Shown here: positions 9,196-13,178 of the stretch, one piece after another
Numbering within the stretch: the stretch's first letter is position 1
Layout: each line of letters starts with the position of its first letter
Assembly (NCBI GenBank): GCA_020845635.1
Contig: JADLFI010000037.1
Location: 62,001 to 126,000 of the forward strand
Length of the DNA stretch: 64,000 bases
Source of the DNA: Bacteroidia bacterium
GTDB lineage: Bacteria > Bacteroidota > Bacteroidia > UBA4408
Direction: 5' to 3'
Program-made: the position numbers and the translations under genes
Notes under the pieces: generated by a model
Databases searched by the model: none
The model's input: only the letters and a program-made list of their open reading frames with translations
Told to the model about the DNA's origin: nothing

Positions 9196-9203
9196 TATAT
9201 TTG
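9196..9203 (+). promoter_or_regulatory. Candidate -7 box of the deoC cluster
   Basis: TATATTTG matches the -7 consensus TAnnTTTG and ends 21 bases before the deoC ATG at 9225. No well-spaced -33 TTTG is obvious. The box overlaps a potential TTG start at 9201, which supports initiation at the downstream ATG. Confidence 0.45.
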
Positions 9204-9224
9204 GCAGTTAATCATAAATTATAT

Positions 9225-10136
9225 ATGAATAAAATTATAAATATTCCTGATTTTACCCAAACGGTAACTGTTGATCAAGTTGGTGTAGAAGAACGATGTG
9301 CCCGATTTGCCACGCGCAGTATCAAAAAAGAGGCTAAAGTTCAAGGACTAAAAATGGTGCTTAACATGATTGATTTAACCACTCTTGAAGGTAAAGATAC
9401 CGAAGGAAAGGTTAAACAAATGTGCTATAAAGCTACGCACTTGCATGATGTACTGCCGGGGCTACCCACCACAGCAGCCGTTTGTGTTTATCCAAGCATG
9501 GTTAAAACAGCAAAAGAGGCCTTAAAGGGAAGCCATGTAAAGGTTGCTTCGGTAGCTACTGCTTTTCCGAGTGGGCAATCAAGCACCGAAATAAAAGTGG
9601 CTGATACGCGATATGCTGTTGATAACGGGGCCGATGAGATTGATATGGTAATTAGTCGTGGTGAGTTTCTAAAAGGTAATTACAATTTTGTTTTTGATGA
9701 AATAGCCTTGATTAAAGAAACATGTGGCAAAGCACGCCTAAAAGTGATATTTGAAACAGGTGAACTTTCAACGCTTGATAATGTACGTAAAGCCAGTGAA
9801 ATAGCTATGTATGCCGGAGCCGACTTTATTAAAACATCAACCGGAAAAATATCGCCAGCGGCCACTATGCCCGTAACCTTAGTAATGCTTGAGGCTATTC
9901 GCGATTTTTATTACAAAACAGGAATTATGGTAGGCATGAAGCCTGCCGGAGGTATTTCAAATGCCAAAACAGCATTACATTATTTAGTGATGTTAAAAGA
10001 AACCTTGGGCGCCTCTTGGTTAAACAATCATTGGTATCGCTTTGGAGCCAGCAGTTTGGCTAACGATGTACTCATGCAGATAATGAAAGAGACAACCGGA
10101 GTTTATCAAGGAGTTGATTATTTCTCAAAAGACTAA
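9225..10136 (+). CDS. deoC: Deoxyribose-phosphate aldolase
   Basis: A 303-residue class I aldolase that cleaves 2-deoxyribose 5-phosphate to glyceraldehyde 3-phosphate and acetaldehyde. The Schiff-base lysine is K203 in FIKTSTGK, and the second active-site lysine is K239 in VGMKPAGG; the acidic ADEIDMV motif is also present. An in-frame TTG at 9201 could add 8 residues, but a -7 promoter box overlaps it, so the ATG is chosen. The protein is longer than the E. coli enzyme (about 260 residues) through an N-terminal segment. It begins a same-strand cluster with two aldehyde dehydrogenase-family genes, which could oxidise the acetaldehyde product. Confidence 0.93.
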   Translation: MNKIINIPDFTQTVTVDQVGVEERCARFATRSIKKEAKVQGLKMVLNMIDLTTLEGKDTEGKVKQMCYKATHLHDVLPGLPTTAAVCVYPSMVKTAKEALKGSHVKVASVATAFPSGQSSTEIKVADTRYAVDNGADEIDMVISRGEFLKGNYNFVFDEIALIKETCGKARLKVIFETGELSTLDNVRKASEIAMYAGADFIKTSTGKISPAATMPVTLVMLEAIRDFYYKTGIMVGMKPAGGISNAKTALHYLVMLKETLGASWLNNHWYRFGASSLANDVLMQIMKETTGVYQGVDYFSKD

Positions 10137-10141
10137 TAGTT

Positions 10142-10768
10142 ATGGCTGCATTGCTCAATTTACGATGTAATCAATATTATTATTTAGAAAGTACTGAAAG
10201 TGCTTCGGTTCTTTTTAGAGATGAGCATGATTACAAATATTTTTTTAGTTTGTTTGCCGAAAAAATTGAGCCTTTAGCCGATTTGTATGCCTATTGCTTA
10301 AGCCATGTGTCACTGGGCTTATTGATAAAGATAAAAGACGAAGAAAGTGTTTTCAAGTATTTAAAGTTTGAAAATAAATTTCCTGATGAGATGATGACCT
10401 TAAAAGAATTAAAATCTTTATCCGCAGCGCAGGGACTTAATAATATAAATATTTTGCAATTGCATCTAAACAAATTGTTCAACTCCTTTATACAATCATT
10501 AAGCAATGCCCTAAATCATAAAAACATAGTTTTACAGGCCGAGTTATTGGAAGAGCCCGAAACCATGAGAAACAAAGTAATTAACCTGCATCAAAAAGTG
10601 TTGCACCAAAATTTGGTTTTGCAAATTCAACAATGGAAATACTCGTCTTATAATGCCATTCTTTCCGAAAAGCCAACCAAAATAAAGCGAGAAGAATTAT
10701 TGAAGTGGTTTGGCGGTATAAACGAGTTTAAACATCAACATAAAATAACAGAAGAAATAAAAATTTAA
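10142..10768 (+). CDS. Transposase-derived protein (IS200/REP-type Y1 fold) lacking catalytic residues
   Basis: A 208-residue protein that aligns by eye over its length with the Bacteroidota IS200/REP-associated (Y1) transposases. Shared parts are the DEHDYKYFFSLF and LADLYAYCL segments, the LLIKIKDEE strand and the C-terminal WKYSSYNAIL...PTKIKREELLKWFGG. The catalytic parts are gone: the family HUH in PNHFHLL reads HVSLGLL, with S57 and G59 at the two His positions, and the nucleophile Tyr in the SYSKA-type helix is F116. The HxNPV segment is also lost. The frame is intact and starts 5 bases after deoC and 23 bases before the aldehyde dehydrogenase, so it looks retained as an operon gene. 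A nucleic-acid-binding role is inference. Confidence 0.7.
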   Translation: MAALLNLRCNQYYYLESTESASVLFRDEHDYKYFFSLFAEKIEPLADLYAYCLSHVSLGLLIKIKDEESVFKYLKFENKFPDEMMTLKELKSLSAAQGLNNINILQLHLNKLFNSFIQSLSNALNHKNIVLQAELLEEPETMRNKVINLHQKVLHQNLVLQIQQWKYSSYNAILSEKPTKIKREELLKWFGGINEFKHQHKITEEIKI

Positions 10769-10791: not shown

Positions 10792-12261
10792 ATGGGAAAG
10801 AAAACAACAAACAGTCTTGACTTTACAAGTGGCTGGGCGTATGCCCCGGCACCGGAAGACACTAAACATATACAACTGAAGAAACAGTATGATTTGTTTA
10901 TTGACGGAAAGTTTGTAAAACCAACTAAGGGGAAATATTTTGAAACTGTTAATCCGGCTAATGAAGAAGTTATAGCCAGTGTTGCCGAAGCAGACGAAAA
11001 TGACGTAAATAAAGCTGTAAAAGCAGCGCGCAATGCATATCAAAAAGTGTGGGGCAAGATGCCCGGTGCCGAGCGTGGTAAATACATTTACCGTATTGCG
11101 CGTTTAATGCAGGAAAGAGCACGCGAGCTTGCAGTTATTGAATCTATGGATGGTGGTAAACCTATACGAGAAAGTAGAGATATTGATATTCCTTTAGCCG
11201 CTAATCATTTCTTTTACTATGCCGGCTGGGCCGATAAGTTAAACTATGCCTTTCCTAACCGTAAACCTAAAGCTTTAGGGGTTGCAGGACAAATTATTCC
11301 GTGGAATTTCCCTTTACTAATGGCTGCTTGGAAAATAGCTCCTGCCTTAGCTTGCGGAAATACGGTAGTGCTTAAACCTGCCGAAACAACTCCTCTAACA
11401 GCATTAAAACTTGCAGAAATAATCCAGGAAAGCGGACTCCCCGAAGGTGTAGTCAATATTATTACAGGTGCCGGGAAAACTGGCGCTACACTGGTTAATC
11501 ATCCTGATATTAATAAGATTGCATTTACCGGCTCTACCGATGTGGGTAAGATAATTCAAAAAGCTATTGCCGGAACATCAAAGAAATCAACACTTGAACT
11601 GGGTGGTAAGGCTGCCAATATTGTTTTTGATGATGCTCCTATTGACCAAGCTGTTGAAGGAATTATCAATGGTATTTTCTTTAATCAGGGACACGTGTGC
11701 TGTGCAGGTAGTCGTTTATTTATACAAGAAAACGTAGCCGATATGGTTATTCAAAAACTGAAAGACCGTATGGAGACGCTTATTGTTGGAAATCCTTTAG
11801 ATAAGAATACCGATATTGGGGCTATAAATAGCAAGGCACAGCTAAATACTATTAATAACTATTTGAAAATAGGAAAAGATGAAGGGGCCGAGTTGTACCA
11901 GAGTTCATGCAGTATTCCTAAGAAAGGTTATTTTTGCCGCCCTACTTTATTTTTGAACACTTCGCAAAGCCACCGTATAGTGCAAGAAGAAATTTTTGGC
12001 CCTGTGTTGACCATTCAAACTTTCCGAACTGTTGAAGAAGTAATTGAGAAAGCCAACAATATACCTTATGGTTTAAGTGCCGGAGTATGGACCGATAAAG
12101 GCTCTAAAATATTTAATTTGACTACTAAATTACGTGCCGGTGTGGTTTGGGCAAATACTTATAATAAGTTTGACCCTACTTCACCTTTTGGAGGATATAA
12201 AGAAAGCGGCTTTGGTCGCGAAGGCGGTTTACATGGACTAAGCGCCTATTTAGAATTTTAA
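10792..12261 (+). CDS. NAD(P)-dependent aldehyde dehydrogenase, ALDH16-like catalytic subunit
   Basis: A 489-residue member of the aldehyde dehydrogenase superfamily with all catalytic parts: the general base Glu269 in TLELGGK, the nucleophile Cys303 in NQGHVCCAGSR, the IPWNFPLLMAAWK cofactor loop, and FGPVLTIQTF near the C-terminus. A preceding N-terminal extension of about 35 residues (SLDFTSGWAYAPAPEDTKHI) is of the kind seen in ALDH16-type proteins. It is followed after 32 bases by a second, truncated ALDH, and the pair adds up to about the length of two-domain ALDH16. With deoC upstream, acetaldehyde is a plausible substrate, but this is inferred from context. Confidence 0.88.
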   Translation: MGKKTTNSLDFTSGWAYAPAPEDTKHIQLKKQYDLFIDGKFVKPTKGKYFETVNPANEEVIASVAEADENDVNKAVKAARNAYQKVWGKMPGAERGKYIYRIARLMQERARELAVIESMDGGKPIRESRDIDIPLAANHFFYYAGWADKLNYAFPNRKPKALGVAGQIIPWNFPLLMAAWKIAPALACGNTVVLKPAETTPLTALKLAEIIQESGLPEGVVNIITGAGKTGATLVNHPDINKIAFTGSTDVGKIIQKAIAGTSKKSTLELGGKAANIVFDDAPIDQAVEGIINGIFFNQGHVCCAGSRLFIQENVADMVIQKLKDRMETLIVGNPLDKNTDIGAINSKAQLNTINNYLKIGKDEGAELYQSSCSIPKKGYFCRPTLFLNTSQSHRIVQEEIFGPVLTIQTFRTVEEVIEKANNIPYGLSAGVWTDKGSKIFNLTTKLRAGVVWANTYNKFDPTSPFGGYKESGFGREGGLHGLSAYLEF

Positions 12262-12293: not shown

Positions 12294-13178
12294 ATGGCAA
12301 GAGTAAAAGTTTTGAAAACGTATAAGATATACATTGGCGGGGCTTTTCCGCGTACCGAAAGTGGCAGATACTACCCGCTATACAATAACAACAAAGATTT
12401 AATTGCTAATATTTGCTTGTCGTCTCGTAAAGATTTTAGAAATGCAGTGGTAGCAGCACGTGCAGCTTTTGGTGGCTGGAGCTCAAGAGCTGCGTTTAAC
12501 CGCTCACAAATTATGTACCGTATGGGTGAGATGTTGGAAACCCGTAAGCAGCAGTTTATTGAAGAATTATTAATGCAGGGCGCTAATGCTAAATCAGCCG
12601 AGCAAGAATTTAACAATGCCGTTGACCGCCTCATTTATTATGCAGGTTGGTGCGATAAATATCAACAAATTTTCGGGACGATTAACCCGGTAGCTTCTTC
12701 ACATTTTAATTTCTCGGTTCCTGAACCTACAGGAGTAGTAAGCATTATGGCTGACGAGAACAGCAGTTTAATAGGGCTGATTGATGCTATTGCCCCGGTT
12801 ATTGCAGGCGGTAACACTTGTGTGGTACTAGCTTCCGAGAGTAAACCTTTATGTGCAGTAACTTTTGCCGAGGTTATCAATTCATCTGACGTTCCGGGGG
12901 GGGTAATTAACATTCTTACCGGAAAAAAGGACGAGTTGCATAGTTATTTCAGCAATCACATGGATGTTAATGCAGTTGTTTATTATGGGAATAACACCAC
13001 TATGATTAAGAGCATTCAGGAAAATGCTACTAATAATGTAAAACGTGTTTTTATCTATAATCAGAAAAGAGAAAACCCGGAGGAGTTCCAAAATCCGTTT
13101 TATATTTTAGATACTCAGGAAATTAAAACTACCTGGCATCCTATTGAAAATATTGGTGTAGGCGGGGCTAAGTATTAG
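12294..13178 (+). CDS. Truncated aldehyde dehydrogenase-family pseudoenzyme, ALDH16 C-terminal domain-like
   Basis: A 294-residue protein homologous to the first half of an aldehyde dehydrogenase: KTYKIYIGGAFPRTESGR at the N-terminus, then RSQIMYRMGEMLETR, and VPEPTGVVSIMADENSSLIG and PGGVINILTG of the Rossmann fold. The segment that should carry the catalytic Cys and most of the catalytic domain is absent; the protein ends in a short tail (HPIENIGVGGAKY). The usual cofactor-loop IPWNFP is replaced by MADENSS. This is the architecture of the non-catalytic second domain of ALDH16 proteins, here as a separate gene right after the catalytic partner. It is not a broken copy of its neighbour, since the sequences differ throughout. 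Confidence 0.8.
   Translation: MARVKVLKTYKIYIGGAFPRTESGRYYPLYNNNKDLIANICLSSRKDFRNAVVAARAAFGGWSSRAAFNRSQIMYRMGEMLETRKQQFIEELLMQGANAKSAEQEFNNAVDRLIYYAGWCDKYQQIFGTINPVASSHFNFSVPEPTGVVSIMADENSSLIGLIDAIAPVIAGGNTCVVLASESKPLCAVTFAEVINSSDVPGGVINILTGKKDELHSYFSNHMDVNAVVYYGNNTTMIKSIQENATNNVKRVFIYNQKRENPEEFQNPFYILDTQEIKTTWHPIENIGVGGAKY

Follow-up and report, generated by a model that had tools for sequence, protein, structure and literature searches.

Proteins of the RAYT group (TnpA_REP) are domesticated transposases that retain catalysis (PMC8266576). The window analysed here, i.e., the whole stretch of 64,000 nucleotides from a Bacteroidia bacterium, raises the question of what becomes of such a gene when the catalytic residues are gone: a reading frame of this descent, with its catalytic set replaced, lies between deoC and an aldehyde dehydrogenase gene (ALDH1), and we asked where it came from, whether it is maintained, and what it may do for its host.

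Position, descent and predicted fold

The frame is open throughout, with a gap of 5 nt to the deoC stop and of 23 nt to the ALDH1 start, so that the coordinates bear out what the first-pass annotation had said about its extent and spacing (Table 1). Since the chance that a random sequence of the same composition stays open over 208 codons is only about 2e-8, the ORF is not a chance product. Of two candidate starts of deoC, TTG at 9201 and ATG at 9225, the latter is the more probable. The third gene of the cluster encodes 294 amino acids corresponding to only the N-terminal half of PF00171, without the usual catalytic Cys region, and was found 3' of ALDH1 in most Bacteroidota loci (55–76% identity) and in Actinobacteria (41–49%); it appears to encode a widely conserved pseudoenzyme partner.

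Table 1. Coordinates of the deoC-ALDH1 cluster and of positions within the RAYT-derived protein
Feature	Position in window	Strand	Basis
deoC, deoxyribose-phosphate aldolase, upstream operon partner	9201..10136	+	TIGR00126, E 1.1e-56
RAYT/TnpA_REP-derived, putatively catalysis-dead protein, 208 aa	10142..10768	+	Alignments, tree, model
HUH position, S57-L58-G59 replacing H-F-H	10310..10318	+	Two alignments, strand beta-3 ungapped
Deletion site of about 8 residues (RxGSLF segment of intact RAYTs), helix alpha-C/strand beta-4	10526..10531	+	Exact place alignment-dependent
YxxxNP position, N148 L H150 Q K152 V153	10583..10600	+	Alignments; PMC6006769 motif; Y115/N119 of E. coli TnpAREP
Best-conserved part, W165-K-Y-S-S-Y-x-A-I-L-S-x-K-P to R183	10634..10690	+	Common to three degenerate copies
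Aldehyde dehydrogenase (ALDH1), downstream operon partner	10792..12261	+	PF00171, E 5.7e-165
Half-length aldehyde dehydrogenase homologue, conserved third cluster gene	12294..13178	+	PF00171 positions 16-232 of 461

Searches of Pfam, NCBIfam and PHROGs with the window protein resulted in no match above noise, PF01797 and NF047646 included, so that the PF01797 profile proposed at first pass as a check left it undetected, and a search of viral contigs revealed no relative. PF01797 also remained sub-threshold on the intact relatives (17.8 bits against a cut-off of 23), and NF047646, the model for REP-associated tyrosine transposases, matched the intact copy L026 with an E-value of 8.6e-15, under its cut-off. 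In a single direct comparison, the window protein was 34% identical to L026, which also lies at a deoC locus, over 212 columns (E 2e-38). Judged by such alignments, the ORF is a descendant of a REP-associated Y1 transposase (RAYT/TnpA_REP), and the homology to Bacteroidota REP-type Y1 proteins claimed at first pass holds, the syntenic copies also forming one clade (see below). Within the 3.05 Mb genome (G000) the gene occurs once; no other RAYT was detected there, and PF01797 matched only two canonical IS200-like Y1 proteins located elsewhere.

A model built from 27 aligned homologues (pLDDT 92.9, pTM 0.89) predicted a TnpA_REP-type fold for the window protein. Its best structure match was 4er8, E. 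coli TnpA_REP (Foldseek E 6.8e-5), to which VIA-align superposed 147 residues at 3.1 A with a Z of 13.6, the next-best match reaching 6.7; the structural overlay suggested at first pass thus agrees with the proposed fold. Prediction from the single sequence was uninformative (pLDDT 37.9), so the fold claim leans on homology, the model borrowing from the intact homologues. IS200/IS605 TnpA (PF01797) has the core fold of the same HUH superfamily (Z about 6), but the window protein is PF01797-negative, its gene is single-copy, and no hairpin ends were detected.

Catalytic residues and flanking palindromes

The intact syntenic copies carry NHFH and YIHxNP, the class 2 Y1 signature of TnpA_REP/RAYT proteins (PMC6006769). 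In E. coli TnpAREP, Y115 is the nucleophile and N119 helps in metal binding (PMC8266576, PMC6006769), and a profile of the window-family proteins aligns to the Y115/N119 stretch of PDB 4er8. The two HUH histidines of the window protein read S57 and G59 in an ungapped alignment of beta-3, exactly as in the first-pass annotation. The same annotation had taken F116 for the position of the nucleophile, a register produced by a local gap in one alignment; the class 2 nucleophile sits in YxxxNP, where Tyr is replaced by Asn (N148). The HxNPV segment, described there as gone, is substituted and reads L149-H150-Q151-K152-V153, with the metal-binding Asn changed to Lys (K152), Pro changed to Val (V153), and the His kept, while the segment really deleted is a different one ahead of beta-4. 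Helix alpha-C holds another conserved Tyr, which in the window protein is L120 in the ungapped register, and altogether 45 of the 80 positions conserved among intact copies are altered. The His of YIHxNP, H150 (10589–10591), is invariant in 27 of 27 aligned Y1 proteins, catalysis-lost ones included, and another His, at position 55, lies near the lost HUH motif.

Two further copies of the window's family (G006 and G007) are similarly degenerate, and together with the window copy they form a trio from three genera. At the two HUH positions G007 has Q and H, and G006 has E and H; in both, the nucleophile Tyr is replaced by Asn, and the metal-binding Asn by Lys in G007 and by Leu in G006. Hence, both have lost the first His, the Tyr and the Asn and retained the second His, and the loss of both HUH histidines is confined to the window copy. 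Within the trio, the region around the catalytic helix and the loop that precedes beta-4 is the least conserved, and a C-terminal block (residues 157–190) the most; over this block the window protein shows 53% identity both to G006 and to G007. Overall, a catalytic residue was lost in 5 of 14 syntenic copies, as opposed to 0 of 28 non-syntenic copies in the tree; the five losses could represent as few as three events. The copy in G002 (L006) retains HFH and has Gln for Tyr, and that in G167 (L130) reads HFS, the second His being replaced by Ser, and retains the Tyr; both frames are open, and the two are possible early stages of the route taken by the window gene. The idea that a loss of basic charge signals lost DNA binding was discarded, as the intact syntenic copies share the near-neutral pI of the degenerate ones.

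Among intact copies, eight of nine revealed a significant flanking palindrome and the ninth (L007) an imperfect one; in L124, for example, ACCCCTGTCAGGGTTTCAAACCCTGACAGGGGT flanks the RAYT on both sides. Genome-wide repeats, examined by pattern matching only, included CCCTG-type palindromes, the kind seen in L124, in G070 (7), G137 (59), G195 (9), G221 (7), and G105 (5), and none in G000–G007 and G167, while G001 harbored a different type with three copies, one of them adjoining its RAYT. The 59 copies in the whole genome of G137 (L027), of the CCCTGTCAGGGTTnnnAACCCTGACAGGG type, constitute a REP population linked to its deoC-locus RAYT. Intact copies and palindromes together are the RAYT-REP arrangement, and the intact copies were assigned, by motif and phylum only, to Bacteroidetes subclass 2.6 (RAYT group 5), for which atypical flanking structures with copies elsewhere have been described (PMC6006769).

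None of the five catalysis-lost copies has a flanking stem of more than 6 bp. The flanks of the window gene (8 and 26 nt) contain no palindrome and no hairpin ends, the palindrome types of its relatives gave no hit in G000 by pattern search, no perfect hairpin with a stem of at least 11 was found within the 64 kb window, and upstream of deoC no conserved operator or hairpin was found. A second, frame-broken RAYT in G001 (L025/L020, G001:C58) has one palindrome beside and one inside the gene and lies, by eye and from the translations, between an apparent cas9 and cas1.

In sum, the window protein corresponds to class 2 Y1 proteins such as E. coli TnpA_REP (4er8) in its predicted fold, motif order, single copy, and W-x-x-S-S C-terminal block, and its intact orthologs do so in their NHFH and YIHxNP motifs and in flanking palindromes that have copies dispersed across the genome. 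Unlike these, the window copy has neither HUH His, and the Tyr, both NP residues (Asn and Pro), and the RxGSLF segment are missing too, as is a flanking REP-like palindrome; it also lies closely packed within a cluster of metabolic genes.

Distribution and history at the deoC locus

A search of 100 related genomes revealed six further copies with 27–36% identity as best matches, all located between deoC and the same ALDH. Across the loci carrying the Y1 gene, deoC is 79–86% and ALDH 80–90% identical, so that divergence is far quicker in the Y1 gene than in the genes beside it. Within the window's family (G000–G007), it occupies this site in G000, G001, G002, G006, and G007, and within two other families in G070, G074, G105, G137, G167, G195, and G221; contigs L026–L028, L030–L032, and L078, which partially overlap with these genomes, also carry it there. 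With an intact copy as query, 52 of 395 surveyed genomes of the class gave a match, those at the deoC locus belonging to three families; the matches off this locus whose surroundings were read lie elsewhere in the genome. Among 80 named deoC loci, deoC followed directly by ALDH was the usual state in Bacteroidota and Actinobacteria, and the Y1 gene occurred only in a set of related uncultured Bacteroidota. The ortholog survey proposed at first pass therefore did find orthologs at deoC loci, with the full set of losses in the window copy only and part of it in G006 and G007.

Three members of the window's family lack the gene, namely G003, a congener and the closest relative by deoC and ALDH, G004, and G005; since G003 does without it, the gene is dispensable. 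Large deoC-ALDH gaps in L044, L047, and L040 were considered as RAYT remnants and rejected, as other inserts were found there. Inspected by eye, the inserts in L044 (7910–8480) and L047 (7907–8445) look like a four-helix-bundle gene of the 23S rRNA insert type and a GxxExxY-type gene. The deoC-ALDH gap thus looks like an insertion-tolerant site. In G074 (L120), from a distant family, a RAYT occupies the same site although its own deoC and ALDH stand apart from those of the other genomes; this is the clearest case of a site that was either reached repeatedly or lost its RAYT many times.

The 14 syntenic copies form one clade against 28 others (support 99/98). Inside it, the strongly degenerate trio is monophyletic (96/90) and sits on long branches, the end branch of the window copy measuring 2.18 versus a median of 0.65. 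Eight positions shared by the trio differ from the intact majority, the change of the nucleophile Tyr to Asn among them. A tree of deoC and ALDH places the window and G003 beside G001 and G002, with G006 and G007 outside, and so conflicts with the Y1 tree: the G001/G002 pair, called intact as a pair in this comparison with Gln for Tyr in G002, falls within the family between the degenerate lineages. A Y1 topology grouping the window copy with G001/G002 was marginally rejected (AU p 0.045), long branches being involved. Based on these trees, we favour a shared catalytic loss with a fresh copy in G001/G002 over independent losses that would have converged on Asn. Presence at the deoC site requires at least six changes on the deoC and ALDH tree, so loss or re-arrival there is frequent.

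Selection, rival explanations and possible role

The frames of the degenerate trio are open over 208–224 codons. Codon models over 204 codons of 14 copies, with tree fits from several starts, gave an omega of 0.05 for the background and 0.11–0.14 for the degenerate branches, values that are rough since silent substitutions in deoC and ALDH have reached or nearly reached saturation among these genomes; an omega of 1 was rejected (LRT 70 to 85). For the three degenerate tips, omega was 0.11 (LRT 70.5 against omega 1; 74.8 on the species topology), and for the window tip alone, a modest test, 0.13 (10.4; 15.3 on the species topology). The rise over background was not significant on terminal branches (LRT 1.2–1.9) and suggestive only for the whole clade (5.6). 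Pairwise estimates within the trio, with time set from ALDH1, ranged from 0.06 to 0.12 (LRT 90–112). As judged from these models, the amino-acid sequence of the degenerate trio is under purifying selection, and the dN/dS check named at first pass speaks against neutral evolution. That the constraint acted later than the catalytic loss is moderately supported, as it depends on the loss having been shared in the trio; had each copy lost catalysis separately and only recently, some of the measured constraint could be older than the losses.

The best-surviving rival, still unlikely in our estimation, is a functionless RAYT decaying under relaxed selection, with a frame still unbroken. It would fit the fast amino-acid change on the window branch, the many altered positions (45 of 80), the sister genome G003 without the gene, and two other RAYT copies that are visibly decaying, one at the same locus (L031) and the second RAYT in G001 (L025). 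However, these two already have broken frames at 40–68% identity to intact copies, three genera keep the frame open at saturated silent divergence and share the conserved C-terminal block, omega 1 is rejected, and under simulated neutral decay the frame stayed open in 3% of cases at 0.1 substitutions per site and in 0 of 300 at 0.2 or above.

We give less credence still to the idea that the ORF is a mere spacer that keeps ribosomes on the deoC-ALDH message, by translational coupling or protection from Rho termination, while its protein idles. Though this would account for open frames despite the changed residues and would suit the tight gaps (5 and 23 nt) in a multi-gene cluster on one strand, it predicts selection against stop codons only, which is again the rejected omega 1 model because the codon models exclude stop codons, and in most Bacteroidota deoC directly adjoins ALDH, with no spacer gene between them. 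Least of all do we expect continued enzyme activity, through other residues or through a partner that contributes the catalytic ones, for which the invariant H150, the His at 55, and the swapping of Tyr between subunits by IS200-type HUH transposases (PMC2817692) might be invoked, since the loss takes in the two motif His, the Tyr, and the metal-binding Asn at once and the genome shows no second RAYT, just the two IS200-like PF01797 matches.

Selected retention of a nuclease-dead, domesticated RAYT is the explanation we hold to be probable for the window gene. The first-pass annotation had argued from lost catalysis with retained fold and operon place to an exapted protein; with a fold match, orthologs at deoC loci, and non-neutral evolution all found, exaptation is the best reading, the picture of complete loss needing correction in that the losses are graded and G006 and G007 keep the second His. 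At the fixed deoC-ALDH site, a RAYT has lost its catalytic set and its palindromes in the window's lineage, two sister genera included, the spacers being short and the protein still constrained; the window protein would have lost DNA cleavage and been kept for some host benefit. As the fold and the C-terminal part persist, the likeliest remaining activity would be binding of a folded single strand, either DNA or the operon's own mRNA, without cleavage. The likeliest target would be the deoxyribose/acetaldehyde operon itself, whose expression such binding might tune, because the gene lies between deoC and ALDH and is presumably co-transcribed.

A specific nucleic-acid-binding or regulatory role is nevertheless a tentative suggestion, and a shade more tentative is a hairpin-specific binding regulator of this nucleoside/aldehyde catabolic operon, which would make the protein a Y1-transposase counterpart of TnpB-derived TldR. 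TldRs are RNA-guided transcription factors with known guide RNAs and targets, and TnpB partners IS200/IS605 transposons. PMC13418256 describes them as nuclease-dead, TnpB-derived exapted proteins; the exaptation logic would be comparable, a transposon nuclease having lost its active site and the gene having been kept, whereas the protein fold is unrelated and the guide RNAs and targets are known for TldR.

The tree of a published phylogenomic survey was built from sequences with conserved HuH and Y motifs only (PMC6006769), and a limited literature search turned up no account of a RAYT that is dead in catalysis and retained within a metabolic operon. RAYT domestication and the exaptation of dead TnpB are known. 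Why RAYTs are kept by their hosts has been a standing question. A lineage that retains the gene after losing both the catalytic set and the REPs would separate REP spread from host benefit. As one locus holds intact REP-flanked, Tyr-lost, His-lost, and degenerate copies as well as empty sites, it makes the question of host retention directly testable.
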